DNA of 64,000 nucleotides from Acidimicrobiales bacterium (GTDB lineage: Bacteria > Actinomycetota > Acidimicrobiia > Acidimicrobiales > Aldehydirespiratoraceae). The translations under genes and the position numbers were made by a program. The stretch is taken from assembly GCA_029263195.1 (NCBI GenBank), contig JAJCXX010000082.1, positions 113,622 to 177,621 of the forward strand, read 5' to 3'. Below the pieces are notes generated by a model. The model did not search any database. It saw only the letters and a program-made list of their open reading frames with translations, and was not told the DNA's origin. Shown in pieces: positions 52,504 through 64,000 of this stretch (position 1 is its first letter; each line of letters starts with the position of its first letter).

Positions 52504-53436
52504 ATGTCATCTCCGAGCCTTCGTGTGTCCGATGAGGTAGCCGACGCGCTCACCGCGAACCGGCCGATCGTGGCGTTGGAGTCGACGATATTCAGCAGCC
52601 TCGGCCTGCCTGATCCTCACAATGGCGAGTGCCTCGAGAGGTGTGTCGCCGCGATTCGGGGCGGGGGCGCAGTTCCGGCGCTCACCGCGGTGCTGGATGG
52701 TCGGGGTGTGGTCGGTGTAGACGACGACGAGATCGGGCGGGTTCTCGCCGCTACCCGGAAAATCGCGGCCCGAGACCTGCCGGTTGCTCTGGGATCGGGG
52801 GCCGACGTGGGGGTCACCACAGTGTCGGCTTCGGTGACGCTCGCCGCCGCCGCCGGAATCGAGGTATTTGCGACCGGCGGCGTTGGGGGAGTCCACCGAG
52901 GATCGGAGTTGAGCGGAGACGTGAGCCATGATCTCGTGGCGCTTTCGCGACACCCCGTGGTCACGGTGTCGGCGGGAGCCAAGGCGTTTCTGGATCTGGC
53001 ACGAACCCTCGAGCTGCTCGAGACGTTGGGAGTGCCCGTGGTCGGTTGGAAGACCGATCGATTCCCTGCCTTCTACGTTCGCGACAGTGGCCTTCCGGTG
53101 AGCTTCCGCGCTGATGACCCGACAGTGATCGCCCGAGTGTTTCGCTCGGCCCACGACCTCGGTCATCCCGGAGGCGTGCTCGTGGCCAACCCGATCCCGA
53201 GTGCCGACGAGCTCGATCCGGAATTGATCGACTCCGCCCTCGAGGCCGGTCTCGACCAGGTCACGAGACTGGGCCTGTCGGGGCCAGCGGTGACCCCGGT
53301 GGTGCTGGGTGCGATCGCGGCGGCCACCGACGGATTGAGCGTGCCGGCCAACCTCGCGTTGGCCGAGAGCAACGCCGCTGTGGCGGCCGAGATCGCCACC
53401 GCTCTGGCCCTCGAGCCGAGTTCGGCAGCTGACTGA
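52504..53436 (+). CDS. psuG: Pseudouridine-5'-phosphate glycosidase
   Basis: A 310-residue PsuG, which cleaves the C-C bond of pseudouridine 5'-phosphate to uracil and ribose 5-phosphate in pseudouridine salvage. Landmarks are PIVALESTIFSSLGLP, VFATGGVGGVHRGSELSGDVSHDL, TVSAGAKAFLDLARTLELLE and VVGWKTDRFPAFYVRDSGLPV (active-site Lys). The partner kinase PsuK is not adjacent. TACCCT lies 6 bp before the ATG. Confidence 0.94.
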   Translation: MSSPSLRVSDEVADALTANRPIVALESTIFSSLGLPDPHNGECLERCVAAIRGGGAVPALTAVLDGRGVVGVDDDEIGRVLAATRKIAARDLPVALGSGADVGVTTVSASVTLAAAAGIEVFATGGVGGVHRGSELSGDVSHDLVALSRHPVVTVSAGAKAFLDLARTLELLETLGVPVVGWKTDRFPAFYVRDSGLPVSFRADDPTVIARVFRSAHDLGHPGGVLVANPIPSADELDPELIDSALEAGLDQVTRLGLSGPAVTPVVLGAIAAATDGLSVPANLALAESNAAVAAEIATALALEPSSAAD

Positions 53437-59949: not shown

Positions 59950-60465
59950 TCAGGTCGAGCCGCGGAGCGAAGGATCGCTGCCGCACCGCCGTTCGAGCAA
60001 CATGGTGTCCCAGTATTGGCCGAGCTTGGTGCCGACTTCGTGCAGAATGCCGACCTCCGAATAGCCGAGCTTGCGATGCAGCGAGACGGAGGCGTCGTTG
60101 GGTAGAGCAACTATCGCCACCGCGAGGTGGACCCCTTGCTCGGTGAGGCGATCGAGTAGAGCACCGAGCAGAACGGTACCGAACCCCTTTCCGCGGCACG
60201 CATCGTCGAGAACGATCGTGGTCTCCATCGTCGAGCGGTAGCCGAGCTTGGGCCGGTAGAAGGTCGAGTAGGTGACTCCCACCACGGTTCCGTCATCCTC
60301 ACCGACCAGACAAGTGAGGTCGGGGTGCCGGTCGTCCCACCAGGCGGAACGGCTCTCGAGGTCGAACGGCTCCGTATCGAACGACACGTGGTTGTCGACG
60401 AGTGTCCAGTTGTAGATCTCGTTGATTCGTCCGAAATCCGATCGGGTCGCGTCGCGGATCAGCAT
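59950..60465 (-). CDS. GNAT N-acetyltransferase (phosphinothricin/amino-acid acetyltransferase-like)
   Basis: A 171-residue acetyltransferase of the PAT/MnaT group. The acetyl-CoA loop is CRGKGFGTVLLGALLDRL (Q/RxxGxG/A), with family blocks RDATRSDFGRINEIYNWT and PNDASVSLHRKLGYSEVG. Such enzymes acetylate amino acids or phosphinothricin-like analogues; the substrate is not proven. TAAAGT lies 6 bp before the ATG. Confidence 0.88.
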   Translation of the reverse strand: MLIRDATRSDFGRINEIYNWTLVDNHVSFDTEPFDLESRSAWWDDRHPDLTCLVGEDDGTVVGVTYSTFYRPKLGYRSTMETTIVLDDACRGKGFGTVLLGALLDRLTEQGVHLAVAIVALPNDASVSLHRKLGYSEVGILHEVGTKLGQYWDTMLLERRCGSDPSLRGST

Positions 60466-60471
60466 TTCCCG

Positions 60472-60477
60472 ACTTTA
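60472..60477 (-). promoter_or_regulatory. Leaderless-type -10 box (TAAAGT) of the GNAT gene
   Basis: TAAAGT ends 6 bp before the ATG at 60465, with no Shine-Dalgarno. Confidence 0.6.
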
Positions 60478-60524
60478 GGTCGTGTCTTCGCGAGCCTGCT
60501 GCGCGCAATCGTGGAGGTTTCCGC

Positions 60525-60530
60525 GATACT
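60525..60530 (+). promoter_or_regulatory. Candidate leaderless -10 box (GATACT) of the PLP/MarR operon
   Basis: GATACT ends 6 bp before the GTG at 60537. It differs from TANNNT only at the first base and keeps the spacing found at other genes. It lies close to the divergent TAAAGT box of the GNAT gene, making the intergenic 71 bp a two-way promoter. Confidence 0.4.
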
Positions 60531-60536
60531 GAGCCG

Positions 60537-62069
60537 GTGACAGACCAAGCAGAGATCGCCAGAGCCCACGCATCGTTGGGACTCACCACCGCCATCGCCG
60601 ACCAGGGCGTCTACCAGAGAACCGTTGACCGGTTCCGTGAGCGCAACATCGCCCTGCCGACGTTCGCCGAGTTGGCCGATCCCTCAACCATCCCTTCGGC
60701 GCGGATCGAGGCTTTGAGTGGGCTCGACCGAAATGAGCCCGATGCCCGAAACCTGTTCCGGGTCAACTGGTTCGGGAAGCTCGACGGCAGCGGGCCCCAC
60801 GCCGTACCCGACTACATCGAGTTGCCGAGCGAGCTCACTGGAGTCGACGCGCGCATCGTGCTGGCATTCGGAAACCGTTTCCCGATGATCAAGGCTCACA
60901 AGGTGCTGGCCGCCTACGCCTGCCTCGTCCCGCGGCTCGTGACCGGCCGGTTCGATCCGACGGCCCACCGAGCGGTCTGGCCCTCCACCGGCAACTACGC
61001 CCGCGGTGGTGTGGCGATCAGCCGCATCATGGCGTGTCGTGGCGTCGCCGTGCTGCCCGAGGGCATGAGCAAGGCCCGCTTCGATTGGCTCGAGAAATGG
61101 ACGCTCGATCCCGCCAACGACATCATCCGCACGCCCGGCACCGAGAGCAACGTCAAGGAAATCTACGACACGTGCAACGAGCTGGAGAAGGATCCCGAGA
61201 TCGAGATCCTCAACCAGTTCTCGGAGTTCGCCAACTATCTCGGCCACTACTCGGTCACCGGTCCGGCCTTGGAGAAGGTCTATCTCGATGCCGCCGGCAA
61301 CAACCCCGACTCGCGTCTGGCCGCCTACGTGTCGGCTTCCGGTTCGGGTGGCACCCTCGCGGCCGGCGACTATCTCAAGGCCAACCACGGTGCCCGGATC
61401 GTGGCAGTTGAGGCGCTCGAGTGTCCGACGCTTCTCGAGAACGGGTTCGGAGACCACAACATTCAGGGCATCGGCGACAAGCACGTGCCGCTGATCCACA
61501 ACGTCATGAACACCGACGACGTCGTGGCCGTGAGCGACCGGTCGACCGATTCGCTCGACGCTCTGTTCAACACGCCGGCCGGCCGGGCCTACCTGGTCGA
61601 CAACATCGGACTTGCACCAGCGCTGGTCGAATCGCTCCACGACATGGGCTACTCGTCGAGTTGCAACGCCCTGGCCGCCATCAAGATCGCCAAGGAACAC
61701 GATCTCGATCACAACGACGTGATCGTCTCGGTCGCAACCGACGGTGCGGAGATGTACGACGCCGAGCGAGACTCGTACTTGGCCGATCATCACCCCGGCG
61801 GATACGACACGGTCGCCGCGGCCGCCGATTTCGGCCGCGAGCTGGCATCGGGCGACACCGCACAGCACCTCGAGCTCACCCAGGCCCAACGTCGCCGCAT
61901 CTTCAATCTCGGTTACTTCACCTGGGTCGAGCAGCAGGGCACTGATTTCGCCGACTTCACGGTGCGTGCCGACCAGGCGTTCTGGACGGGAATGCACGGG
62001 TTCGTCGCTGACTGGGATGAGCAGATCCGAGAATTCAACGGCCGCACCGGCACCCGCGCCGCCGACTGA
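60537..62069 (+). CDS. Fold-type-II PLP enzyme, large form (cysteine synthase-like beta family)
   Basis: A 510-residue PLP-dependent enzyme of the tryptophan-synthase-beta superfamily. The PLP lysine is probably in FPMIKAHKVLAAYACL, the phosphate-binding Asn loop in WPSTGNYARGGVAI and a glycine loop in SASGSGGTLAAGDYL. It has an extra 60 N-terminal and about 130 C-terminal residues over plain cysteine synthases. I know of this family in actinobacterial genomes but not of a biochemical activity; lyase, synthase or racemase roles are open. It is first in an operon with a second PLP enzyme (1 bp gap) and a MarR regulator. Confidence 0.78.
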   Translation: MTDQAEIARAHASLGLTTAIADQGVYQRTVDRFRERNIALPTFAELADPSTIPSARIEALSGLDRNEPDARNLFRVNWFGKLDGSGPHAVPDYIELPSELTGVDARIVLAFGNRFPMIKAHKVLAAYACLVPRLVTGRFDPTAHRAVWPSTGNYARGGVAISRIMACRGVAVLPEGMSKARFDWLEKWTLDPANDIIRTPGTESNVKEIYDTCNELEKDPEIEILNQFSEFANYLGHYSVTGPALEKVYLDAAGNNPDSRLAAYVSASGSGGTLAAGDYLKANHGARIVAVEALECPTLLENGFGDHNIQGIGDKHVPLIHNVMNTDDVVAVSDRSTDSLDALFNTPAGRAYLVDNIGLAPALVESLHDMGYSSSCNALAAIKIAKEHDLDHNDVIVSVATDGAEMYDAERDSYLADHHPGGYDTVAAAADFGRELASGDTAQHLELTQAQRRRIFNLGYFTWVEQQGTDFADFTVRADQAFWTGMHGFVADWDEQIREFNGRTGTRAAD

Positions 62070-62070
62070 C

Positions 62071-63339
62071 GTGGCCGAACAGCGGTCGACATTCGAGATA
62101 CACGCCGATCGGCTCGACTCTCATCGACTAGCACTCGACTCCGGGGTCGGCGCCGAAGCGGTGTTGTTGATGATCAGACAACTCGACGCGGCTGTGAGCG
62201 ACATCGACGGTCGTGGCTTCCTGCCGACCCCGATTTCGATCGAGTCTCGGCTGGCCTCCGCCCTCGGCATTGAGTCCGAGCTCTGGGTGAAGGACGAGAC
62301 CCACAACGTCTCAGGATCCCACAAGGGTCGCCACCTGTTCGGGGTGGCGCTCCGTCACCTGGTCGACGCGGCCGGCGGACAAGGCTCGGAGGGCCGCTAT
62401 GCCATCGCCAGTTGCGGGAACGCTGCACTAGCGGCCTCGGTCGTGGCCAAGGCAACCGGGCGGGAGCTCGATGTCTTCGTGCCGACCTGGGCCGACGCTG
62501 GAGTCACCGACCGCATCGAGTCGCTCGGCGGCTCGGTGATCAGATGTGATCGCGATCCCGATGTGCCCGGTGACCCCTCCCATCACGCCATGGTCGAGGC
62601 GATCCGAGAAGGAGATGTCGCATTCTCCTGTCAGGGAACCGACACACCGTCGACTCTCGACGGAGGCCGCACGCTCGGCTGGGAACTCGTCGATTCCCTC
62701 ATCGCGCACGACAACGCCGACACCACGCATCTCGACCGGCTCGTGATCCAGGTGGGGGGTGGGGCTCTGGCATCATCGACGGTGCTGGCTCTGGCGTCCG
62801 ATGTCGCCGCCGGGCGGTTGGCGGCCATGCCCGTGATCCACCCGGTTCAGCCCGAGGGGAATCACCCGTTCGTTCGGGCCTGGGACCTGGTCGTCGGCGA
62901 GCTTCTCGTTGCTGAAGTGACCGCCGACCGGGCCGGTGCCGCGGCGTCGCTCGGCCGGCTCGACTCCGCGGCGGTGCGTGTCGTGCTCGCCCGGATCGGA
63001 TCTCGCCCCGACACCTACATGTGGCCCTGGGATGATGAGCCGATGTCCTACGCGTCGGGGATCCTCGACGATGTGACTTACGACTGGCTGCCCATTCTCG
63101 AGGCGACTCTCACCACCGGCGGATGGCCCGTGGTCCCAACCGAGGAGCAGTTCCGGCTGGCGCACACCCTCGGCCACGCCCACACCTCGATCGACGTCTG
63201 CCCGACCGGTTCGGCGGGGCTGGCGGGGCTGGTGGCCCTGCTGGAATCGTCGTCGATCCCGACGGTCGACGAACGGGTCGCCCTGTTGTTCACCGGCCTC
63301 ATGAGATCGGGCGACCCACAGCCAGAACCGCTGGCCTGA
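62071..63339 (+). CDS. Fold-type-II PLP enzyme, threonine synthase/dehydratase-like
   Basis: A 422-residue enzyme from the same superfamily as its upstream neighbour but distinct in sequence. The PLP lysine lies in ETHNVSGSHKGRHLFGV, the phosphate loop in IASCGNAALAASVVA and a glycine pair in VIQVGGGALASS. These recall threonine synthase, threonine dehydratase and diaminopropionate ammonia-lyase. The GTG start at 62071 follows the upstream stop by 1 bp; the track start lies inside that gene. The downstream MarR start overlaps its stop (TGATG). Confidence 0.82.
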   Translation: MAEQRSTFEIHADRLDSHRLALDSGVGAEAVLLMIRQLDAAVSDIDGRGFLPTPISIESRLASALGIESELWVKDETHNVSGSHKGRHLFGVALRHLVDAAGGQGSEGRYAIASCGNAALAASVVAKATGRELDVFVPTWADAGVTDRIESLGGSVIRCDRDPDVPGDPSHHAMVEAIREGDVAFSCQGTDTPSTLDGGRTLGWELVDSLIAHDNADTTHLDRLVIQVGGGALASSTVLALASDVAAGRLAAMPVIHPVQPEGNHPFVRAWDLVVGELLVAEVTADRAGAAASLGRLDSAAVRVVLARIGSRPDTYMWPWDDEPMSYASGILDDVTYDWLPILEATLTTGGWPVVPTEEQFRLAHTLGHAHTSIDVCPTGSAGLAGLVALLESSSIPTVDERVALLFTGLMRSGDPQPEPLA

Positions 63340-63836
63340 TGGCCGACGACGAGATGCTGGCCCCGCTGACCCCCTATCTCGAGGGGCGCCAGAAATCGAC
63401 CATCGAGGTCCTGATCTGGGTGTTGCGGACCGGCCGACAGGTCGAGGCATGGCTTGCCGACACGGTGTCGAGCGAGGAGCTCGACACTTCTGAGTACGCC
63501 ATGCTCTCGGCGCTCTGGCTCGACGGTTCGCCGCACCGGCTGTCGGCGGGTGAGATTTCCATACGCATCGTCCAGACCACCGGCGGCACCACCAAGACCA
63601 TTCGTCGTCTCGAGGAACGGGGTTTGGTGCGCCGGATTGCCGACCCCGACGACGGGCGCAGGTCGCTCATCGAACTCACCGACGAGGGCCTGGCGTTGGC
63701 GCGTTCGACTCTCGATCATGTACTCGACGCTTTTGATCTCGACATCGGCGGTCTCGATACCGCCGAACGAACCGAGATCAGCGAGCGAATGGTGAAGCTC
63801 TCAGCCGAACTCGACGACAGGCTTCGTCGGCGCTGA
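63339..63836 (+). CDS. MarR-family transcriptional regulator
   Basis: A 165-residue winged-helix regulator. The HTH and wing are seen in EISIRIVQTTGGTTKTIRRLEERGLVRRIADPDDGRRSLIELTDEGL, the standard MarR layout. The flanking helices (EYAMLSALWLDGSP and the C-terminal ERMVKLSAELDDRL) would form the dimer. The ATG overlaps the stop of the second PLP enzyme, so the regulator is cotranscribed and may control its own operon in response to a substrate; this is inference. Confidence 0.9.
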   Translation: MADDEMLAPLTPYLEGRQKSTIEVLIWVLRTGRQVEAWLADTVSSEELDTSEYAMLSALWLDGSPHRLSAGEISIRIVQTTGGTTKTIRRLEERGLVRRIADPDDGRRSLIELTDEGLALARSTLDHVLDAFDLDIGGLDTAERTEISERMVKLSAELDDRLRRR

Positions 63837-63841
63837 ACTCC

Positions 63842-64000
63842 TCAGCCTTCCGGCGGGGCCACGAAGTCGATGAGTTGCTCGACCGCACCGAGGAGAGGAG
63901 TCTCGAGGTCGGTCCATGAGTCGACCTTCCCCAGGAGCATCTTCCAGAACTGGCCCGATGTTCCCGTGAATCCGATCGAGTCGAGCACGCCCTGTTTCCA
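63842..64000 (-). CDS. C-terminal end of an unidentified protein (cut by window edge)
   Basis: The minus strand is open for 52 codons to the right edge and ends 5 bp from the convergent MarR stop. The visible residues (GVLDSIGFTGTSGQFWKMLLGK ... LGAVEQLIDFVAPPEG) show no motif I recognise. Coding is supported by the open frame and gene spacing. Confidence 0.6.
   Translation of the reverse strand, partial: WKQGVLDSIGFTGTSGQFWKMLLGKVDSWTDLETPLLGAVEQLIDFVAPPEG

Follow-up and report, generated by a model that had tools for sequence, protein, structure and literature searches.

Gene organization and protein families

The stretch of DNA analyzed here (the window) comprises 64,000 nucleotides of contig JAJCXX010000082.1 (C82) in assembly GCA_029263195.1 of an Acidimicrobiales bacterium, and carries near its end three consecutive genes on the forward strand: gene A (60537..62069), gene B (62071..63339), and a MarR-family regulator gene (63339..63836). 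Gene A begins with GTG, ends with the stop codon TGA at 62067-62069, and encodes a CysK-like protein of 510 amino acids belonging to the fold-type II pyridoxal 5'-phosphate (PLP) enzymes. Gene B, also with a GTG start, encodes a fold-type II PLP protein of 422 amino acids resembling threonine synthase and serine racemase, and the regulator gene starts with ATG and encodes 165 amino acids. One base separates A from B, and the regulator gene overlaps the B stop codon by one base (TGATG). A preliminary description of this DNA had reported two different fold-type II PLP genes 1 bp apart with an overlapping regulator, and re-checking of open reading frame order, spacing, and strands together with Pfam domains confirmed this layout. 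PALP was detected in A (4.9e-13) and B (2.3e-29), and MarR_2 in the third protein (3.9e-9), where it scored above the gathering score. Both A and B combined a PALP match above the gathering score with an invariant Schiff-base lysine, the hallmarks of fold-type II PLP enzymes (PF00291). Given that A and B were conserved across about 37 related genomes, at about 58–97% and 36–91% identity, respectively, we consider both to be real genes.

The two proteins were alike only at the superfamily level: when 27 PLP proteins were compared with one another by BLASTP, B did not appear in the top 14 matches of A. Neither reached any curated NCBIfam equivalog: the best score was 75 bits to cysK for A (TIGR01139, cut-off 351) and 57 bits to PRK08246 for B (cut-off 331). 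Against the threonine synthase profile PRK08197 (cut-off 303), B scored 54 bits and a zinc-ribbon B homologue (L105) 88 bits, while the diaminopropionate ammonia-lyase profile NF006058 (cut-off 276 bits) did not match A at all and gave 16.7 bits for B. Profile matches of A to SbnA, cysteate synthase, and similar families were very weak, and an identity of this type was rejected for that reason. In a tree with E. coli CysK, CysM, TrpB, IlvA, TdcB, ThrC, and YgeX as references, A joined CysK/CysM (99/99) on a long stem of 3.1 changes per column, and B formed its own clade (100/100) near a threonine-synthase-like group, here called B', and apart from the diaminopropionate lyases. Three lyases from the examined genomes grouped with E. 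coli YgeX (100/100), whereas A and B did not; ThrC and TrpB formed very long branches, so that their own places in this tree are unsure. A is an uncharacterized long-stem sister of CysK/CysM and B an uncharacterized deep threonine-synthase-like lineage, and by both tree and profile scores neither falls in a characterized clade of type-II PLP enzymes, a placement that the preliminary description had named as a refutation of its reading.

The AlphaFold model of A (pLDDT, predicted local distance difference test, 85.7; loose loop at 295-315) had a CysK-like core at approximately residues 100–407, flanked on the N-terminal side by roughly 95 and on the C-terminal side by roughly 100 additional residues, both stretches helical; the long extra ends earlier attributed to the larger protein are thus real. 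The model of B was very good (pLDDT 93). The structural matches from Foldseek were cysteine synthases for A, and threonine synthase and serine racemase for B. The invariant Schiff-base lysine is Lys122 in A (motif AHKV, codon 60900-60902) and Lys85 in B (motif GSHK, codon 62323-62325), and where E. coli YgeX has its catalytic Asp120, A has Thr151 and B an invariant Cys115 (codon 62413-62415). That A and B are simply a cysteine synthase and a threonine synthase in an unusual arrangement is highly improbable. Although their nearest solved relatives are cysteine synthases and threonine synthases, respectively, identities of 20–25% lie far under curated cut-offs, the proteins form separate deep clades, and A is sporadic (27 of 397 genomes drawn evenly over the phylum Actinomycetota) and tied to the amidohydrolase SsnA rather than universal. 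Ordinary CysK and ThrC roles were therefore rejected on profile scores, tree, and distribution.

Conservation of the pair

Among 61 related genomes, A was present in 37 and B in 36 of these, the lone exception ending at a contig edge. A scan of 85,000 species genomes returned at least 584 relatives of A, of which the best 80 were examined, with gene calls made by a simple codon-usage script. These 80 closest loci, mostly from metagenome-assembled genomes, were labelled in their records as Actinomycetota, Alpha-, Beta-, and Gammaproteobacteria, Acidobacteriota, Gemmatimonadota, Myxococcota, Planctomycetota, and Chloroflexi. B lay directly downstream of A on the same strand, usually within 200 bases, in 55 of them, and the pairing is accordingly not unique to the window's genome. 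At the other loci A neighbored a coenzyme A (CoA)-transferase gene (10), a diaminopropionate lyase gene (1), or no recognized partner (9), or the sequence ended there (5). A further test of 59 genomes, 32 of them lacking A, recovered B in 19, all of which carried A. In four genomes of other families the partner was B', a different threonine-synthase-like protein encoded before A. This second PLP family, with a zinc ribbon and an SLKDR lysine motif, replaced B at loci L233, L234, L235, and L237. In Aminobacter ciceronei (L163, 8669-11458), a true diaminopropionate ammonia-lyase gene (468 bits, cut-off 276) was located immediately upstream of A, in the place of B. As some clusters have A with no B nearby, whereas every B found was accompanied by A, it is A that stays constant in these arrangements. 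A literature search found no paper naming or testing the A/B pair.

Reductive uric-acid gene clusters

The reductive uric-acid pathway was worked out in 2025 in E. coli and C. difficile (PMC12507026; comment in PMC12990295). Urate is converted to yanthine by XdhD, reduced and ring-opened by YgfK and SsnA, and processed by HyuA, YgeW/UacY, and YgeY to 2,3-diaminopropionate, from which the PALP enzyme YgeX forms pyruvate and ammonia (PMC12507026). The E. coli genes are ordered ygeW-ygeX-ygeY-hyuA-yqeA...ygfK-ssnA-ygfM-xdhD, and YgeX is equally active on D- and L-diaminopropionate (PMC12507026), with Lys77 and Asp120 as catalytic residues (PMC4000059). The survey in that study counted any PF00291 gene near SsnA as YgeX (PMC12507026), so that a swap for A/B would not have shown.

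In several families, A/B were found beside genes for a selenium-type xanthine dehydrogenase (XDH), a YgfK-like protein, and an SsnA-like amidohydrolase, in clusters that also held carbamoylase, CN-hydrolase, and nucleoside-type ATP-binding cassette (ABC) transporter genes. The order XDH-SsnA-A-B or an equivalent recurred in Betaproteobacteria, Acidobacteriota, Gemmatimonadota, and Acidimicrobiia. SsnA was present in 22 of the 80 closest A loci, 17 of which had XDH as well, and co-location with SsnA/XDH/YgfK-type genes was also seen in G011, G024, G028, G121, G360, and other genomes. With E. coli genes as queries, homologues of YgeW, YqeA, YgeY, and HyuA were recovered around A/B in several phyla, and one or more of YgeW, YgeY, and HyuA accompanied the pair in L097, L098, L125, L090, L240, G121, and G360. 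Locus L097 contained ygeW (68% to E. coli), ygeY, XDH, SsnA, A, B, and YgfK, i.e., the E. coli set minus ygeX, with A-B following SsnA; the order was A-B-YgeY-XDH-SsnA in G121 and YgeW-YqeA-B'-A-SsnA-YgfK in G360, one of the B' genomes. Homologues of ygeX itself were found at only three A loci (L122, L145, and L163), and in G060 the ygeX homologue adjoined SsnA (L193), with A/B lying elsewhere.

The distribution of A followed the same pattern. In the 61 related genomes, SsnA was present in all 37 that carried A, and every SsnA genome had A (37) or a YgeX-type lyase (9), with six having both; the three SsnA genomes without A all carried the lyase, and genomes without SsnA had neither. Counted over 25 families, the table of A-or-lyase versus SsnA was 8/0/0/17. 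In the 397-genome set, 25 of the 27 A genomes also had SsnA (Fisher 4e-25), the two exceptions being 67% and 74% complete, and the 45 SsnA genomes comprised 24 with A only, 14 with a YgeX-type lyase only, one with both, and six with neither (p=3e-6); as the genomes are related, these p-values overstate the independent evidence.

Other settings involved coenzyme F420. A gene of the F420 luciferase family adjoined SsnA in Actinomycetota (L081, 11630-12637; L187, 8600-9595; L188, 11150-12160; L239, 14738-15715), and such a gene in place of YgfK has been reported for Chloroflexota (PMC12507026). In Rhizobiales and other Alphaproteobacteria (L123, L126, L154, L156, L160, and L162), A without B was part of a conserved cluster with genes for F420 biosynthesis, an F420 luciferase-family oxidoreductase, CoA-transferase subunits, PxpABC-like 5-oxoprolinase, and a branched-chain-amino-acid-type ABC transporter. 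With gene functions judged from sequence, this is apparently an undescribed F420-linked catabolic pathway; a literature search returned nothing on F420 clusters with 5-oxoprolinase in Alphaproteobacteria.

Proposed function and alternatives

Conservation of the pair, its place in the clusters, co-occurrence with SsnA, near mutual exclusion with the lyase, and intact lysines form the basis on which we propose that A and a second fold-type II PLP protein (B in the window and in most relatives) probably take the place of YgeX in the reductive uric-acid pathway as non-homologous substitutes. We assign A and its partner to the YgeX step because of cluster position, trade-off with the lyase, and conserved active sites; substrate, reaction, and the sharing of work between A and B are inferred. 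A role outside standard threonine, serine, and cysteine metabolism, as surmised in the preliminary description, is strongly indicated, and points to uric acid (purine) catabolism. In the proposed scheme, 2,3-diaminopropionate would be delivered by XDH (urate to yanthine), YgfK or an F420 luciferase-family reductase, SsnA, HyuA, YgeW or carbamoylases, and YgeY, and A/B would catalyze its PLP-dependent alpha,beta-elimination to 2-aminoacrylate, which would yield pyruvate and ammonia.

The simplest guess is that the two proteins split what YgeX does alone, since YgeX takes both D- and L-diaminopropionate with Lys77 and Asp120, and A and B both depart from YgeX at the Asp120 position. Two enzymes with different second-base residues could divide the enantiomers between them, or the lyase could be just one of the two, with the second serving as its partner. 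The latter arrangement, with lyase activity confined to A (or to B) and an accessory, stabilizing, or regulatory role for the second protein in a heteromer, is a minor but credible possibility: A is constant while its partners vary (B, B', diaminopropionate lyase, CoA-transferase, or none nearby), B occurs only with A, and the extra N- and C-terminal helices of A could hold a partner. However, neither protein has lost its catalytic lysine or PLP-phosphate loop, unlike a typical pseudo-enzyme subunit. A more elaborate version would be that A/B form an obligate hetero-oligomer whose two PLP sites serve both diaminopropionate enantiomers (or albizziin directly) and confine 2-aminoacrylate, with A and other partners (B', diaminopropionate lyase, or CoA-transferase plus F420 enzymes) serving a family of reductive N-heterocycle degradation routes, including in aerobic bacteria; we put this forward as speculation and consider it quite unlikely.

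The pair could also belong to the uric-acid pathway and act on another intermediate, for example on albizziin (2-amino-3-ureidopropionate), by direct ureido elimination bypassing one hydrolytic step, or as a racemase. Published accounts leave the order of ureido removal unsettled (PMC12990295), some A/B clusters have no recognizable YgeY (L233, L095, and L110), one lyase step needs fewer than two PLP enzymes, and B has a fold similar to those of both serine racemase and threonine synthase. Nevertheless, G121, L097, and L125 have YgeY clustered with A/B, indicating that the hydrolytic step is kept there and weakening the idea that A/B replace YgeY plus YgeX, and the trade-off with the YgeX-type lyase points at the lyase step; we hold action on another intermediate to be unlikely.

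Several observations weigh against the replacement of YgeX by A and its partner. No XDH, SsnA, or YgfK gene was present within the fetched DNA of 50 of the 80 closest loci, and the purine clusters L094, L130, L143, and L149 have A without a nearby B. In the window itself no pathway genes lie beside A/B, SsnA and YgfK being on another contig (C84), and the same genome encodes a YgeX-type lyase, its gene adjoining that of a YgfK-like protein (C84:134.9-137.3 kb); A/B and such a lyase occur together in five more of the relatives. The SsnA and short YgfK proteins score below curated cut-offs, so that their names rest on closeness and context. The proximity of the Aminobacter A gene to that of a true diaminopropionate lyase (L163) means that A and the lyase are not necessarily interchangeable, and the Rhizobiales A genes, located with CoA-transferase and F420 genes, represent a different setting that our explanation does not cover. 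Furthermore, the profile counts are not phylogenetically independent. Given the presence of a YgeX-type lyase in the window's genome, the pair there probably provides a second, separately regulated route or acts on a related substrate.

On contig C84 of this genome, SsnA is followed by a full-length YgfK gene (879 bits) at 95227-99637, and the short YgfK-like gene lies beside the YgeX-type lyase at 134917-137338, 35 kb from SsnA-YgfK (loci L182 and L184).

A further alternative is a general heterocycle-catabolism role for A, with the substrate set by context, urate as one setting, and the window's genus having drifted to another substrate under MarR control. The Rhizobiales A genes, accompanied by F420 biosynthesis, F420 oxidoreductase, PxpABC-like, CoA-transferase, and amino-acid-type ABC transporter genes, are consistent with such a role, as is the window's genus, which has A/B in addition to a YgeX-type lyase and keeps A/B away from urate genes. 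Nonetheless, A tracks SsnA almost perfectly in Actinomycetota, and A proteins of all settings are roughly 45–65% identical to each other (BLASTP), and we regard this broader role as rather doubtful. Pending biochemistry, A/B are best filed as a variant of the last step of the reductive uric-acid pathway.

Regulator and genomic surroundings

The preliminary description had regarded the regulator as dedicated to the pair, which our comparison led us to reject. Only in three genera of the family (g1, g3, and g6) did the MarR orthologue accompany A/B; it lay apart from them in other genomes, e.g., G011, G028, G013, and G024, and G029 carried it without A/B; positions of orthologues unlinked to A/B were G011:C1 92743, G028:C10 295251, and G029:C5 372028. 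Its target in such genomes is therefore probably something other than A/B. The earlier suspicion of an uncharacterized conversion by a linked PLP pair thus held up in part: the pair is conserved, neither protein lies in a known clade, and a non-standard role is indicated, but the regulator is not dedicated. The two-step amino-acid conversion or heteromeric enzyme suggested in the preliminary description may still apply. The regulator was also considered as a HucR-type urate sensor, a candidate we dropped as HucR was just one of many weak matches.

The neighbors of A/B in the window encode an acyl-CoA ligase, a GNAT acetyltransferase, a helicase, and the MarR regulator. Upstream of A lie the divergent GNAT gene (59950-60465, - strand) and the acyl-CoA ligase gene, and the divergent intergenic stretch of ~70 bp between the GNAT gene and A (60466..60536) is the likeliest place for an operon promoter. 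No consensus site was recognized in this stretch, and a promoter and terminator scan found no promoter-like site and one terminator-like site, inside B, which is no more than chance expectation. The closest families to the GNAT protein were the arsinothricin/phosphinothricin N-acetyltransferases, with a score of 113 bits against a cut-off of 210. An Indigoidine_A-family gene (pseudouridine-5'-phosphate glycosidase type) is located at 52504-53436 on the + strand, and its relatives also occur near the A/B loci L070, L073, and L074. Contig C82 stops exactly at the window end, so that only ~160 bases past the MarR gene are known.

The A-B-MarR segment is present twice in this genome, at 60472-64000 of the window and at 9034-12561 of L064 (G000:C31). 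The two copies are 92.1% identical in DNA, with the match beginning 65 bases ahead of gene A. The window copy carries the left flank of the single locus in genome G001 and the C31 copy its right flank, and C82 ends inside the repeat. The doubling may reflect a duplication with rearrangement or the presence of two strains in one assembly.

Significance and comparison with known systems

The reductive uric-acid pathway was biochemically resolved only in 2025 and was described as limited to obligate and facultative anaerobes. If A and its partner do replace YgeX, the published account would understate both the breadth of the pathway and the variety of its final step, and the pathway would take in large groups of free-living Actinomycetota, Acidobacteriota, and Proteobacteria. 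Several hundred genes of one family, none with a known role so far, would be given a function, surveys scoring any PF00291 gene near SsnA as YgeX would be corrected, and the pair would offer a clean test case for two PLP enzymes in place of one.

Compared with the E. coli reductive uric-acid cluster, A/B clusters of several phyla share homologues of XDH, YgfK, SsnA, YgeW, YqeA, YgeY, and HyuA, but almost all are without ygeX and have A and a second PLP gene in its place, and they often add carbamoylase M20, CN-hydrolase, and F420 luciferase-family genes. YgeX (NF006058 / TIGR03528) is a fold-type II PLP enzyme like A and B, for which we infer the same reaction and pathway position, and it shares with B a (T/S)G-x-AGLAGL segment near the PLP ring. 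However, YgeX and A/B form separate clades, and while the lysine is kept in both A and B, A has Thr and B has Cys instead of Asp120. CysK and CysM share the core fold of A and are its closest tree neighbors, in contrast to which A shows only about 25% identity, a much longer stem, added N- and C-terminal helices, and AHKV instead of SVKxR at the lysine. B has the same fold as threonine synthase, serine racemase, and threonine deaminase (template modeling score 0.71–0.78 by target length), and some B homologues keep a ThrC-like N-terminal zinc-ribbon-like CxxC...C segment, but B shares about 20% identity with threonine synthase, forms its own clade (100/100), and has the GSHK motif and an invariant Cys ahead of GN. 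Finally, the regulator in the window has the winged-helix domain of the MarR family (PcaV, HucR, and others) but is not particularly close to HucR, which responds to urate (2fbk, E 8e-5).

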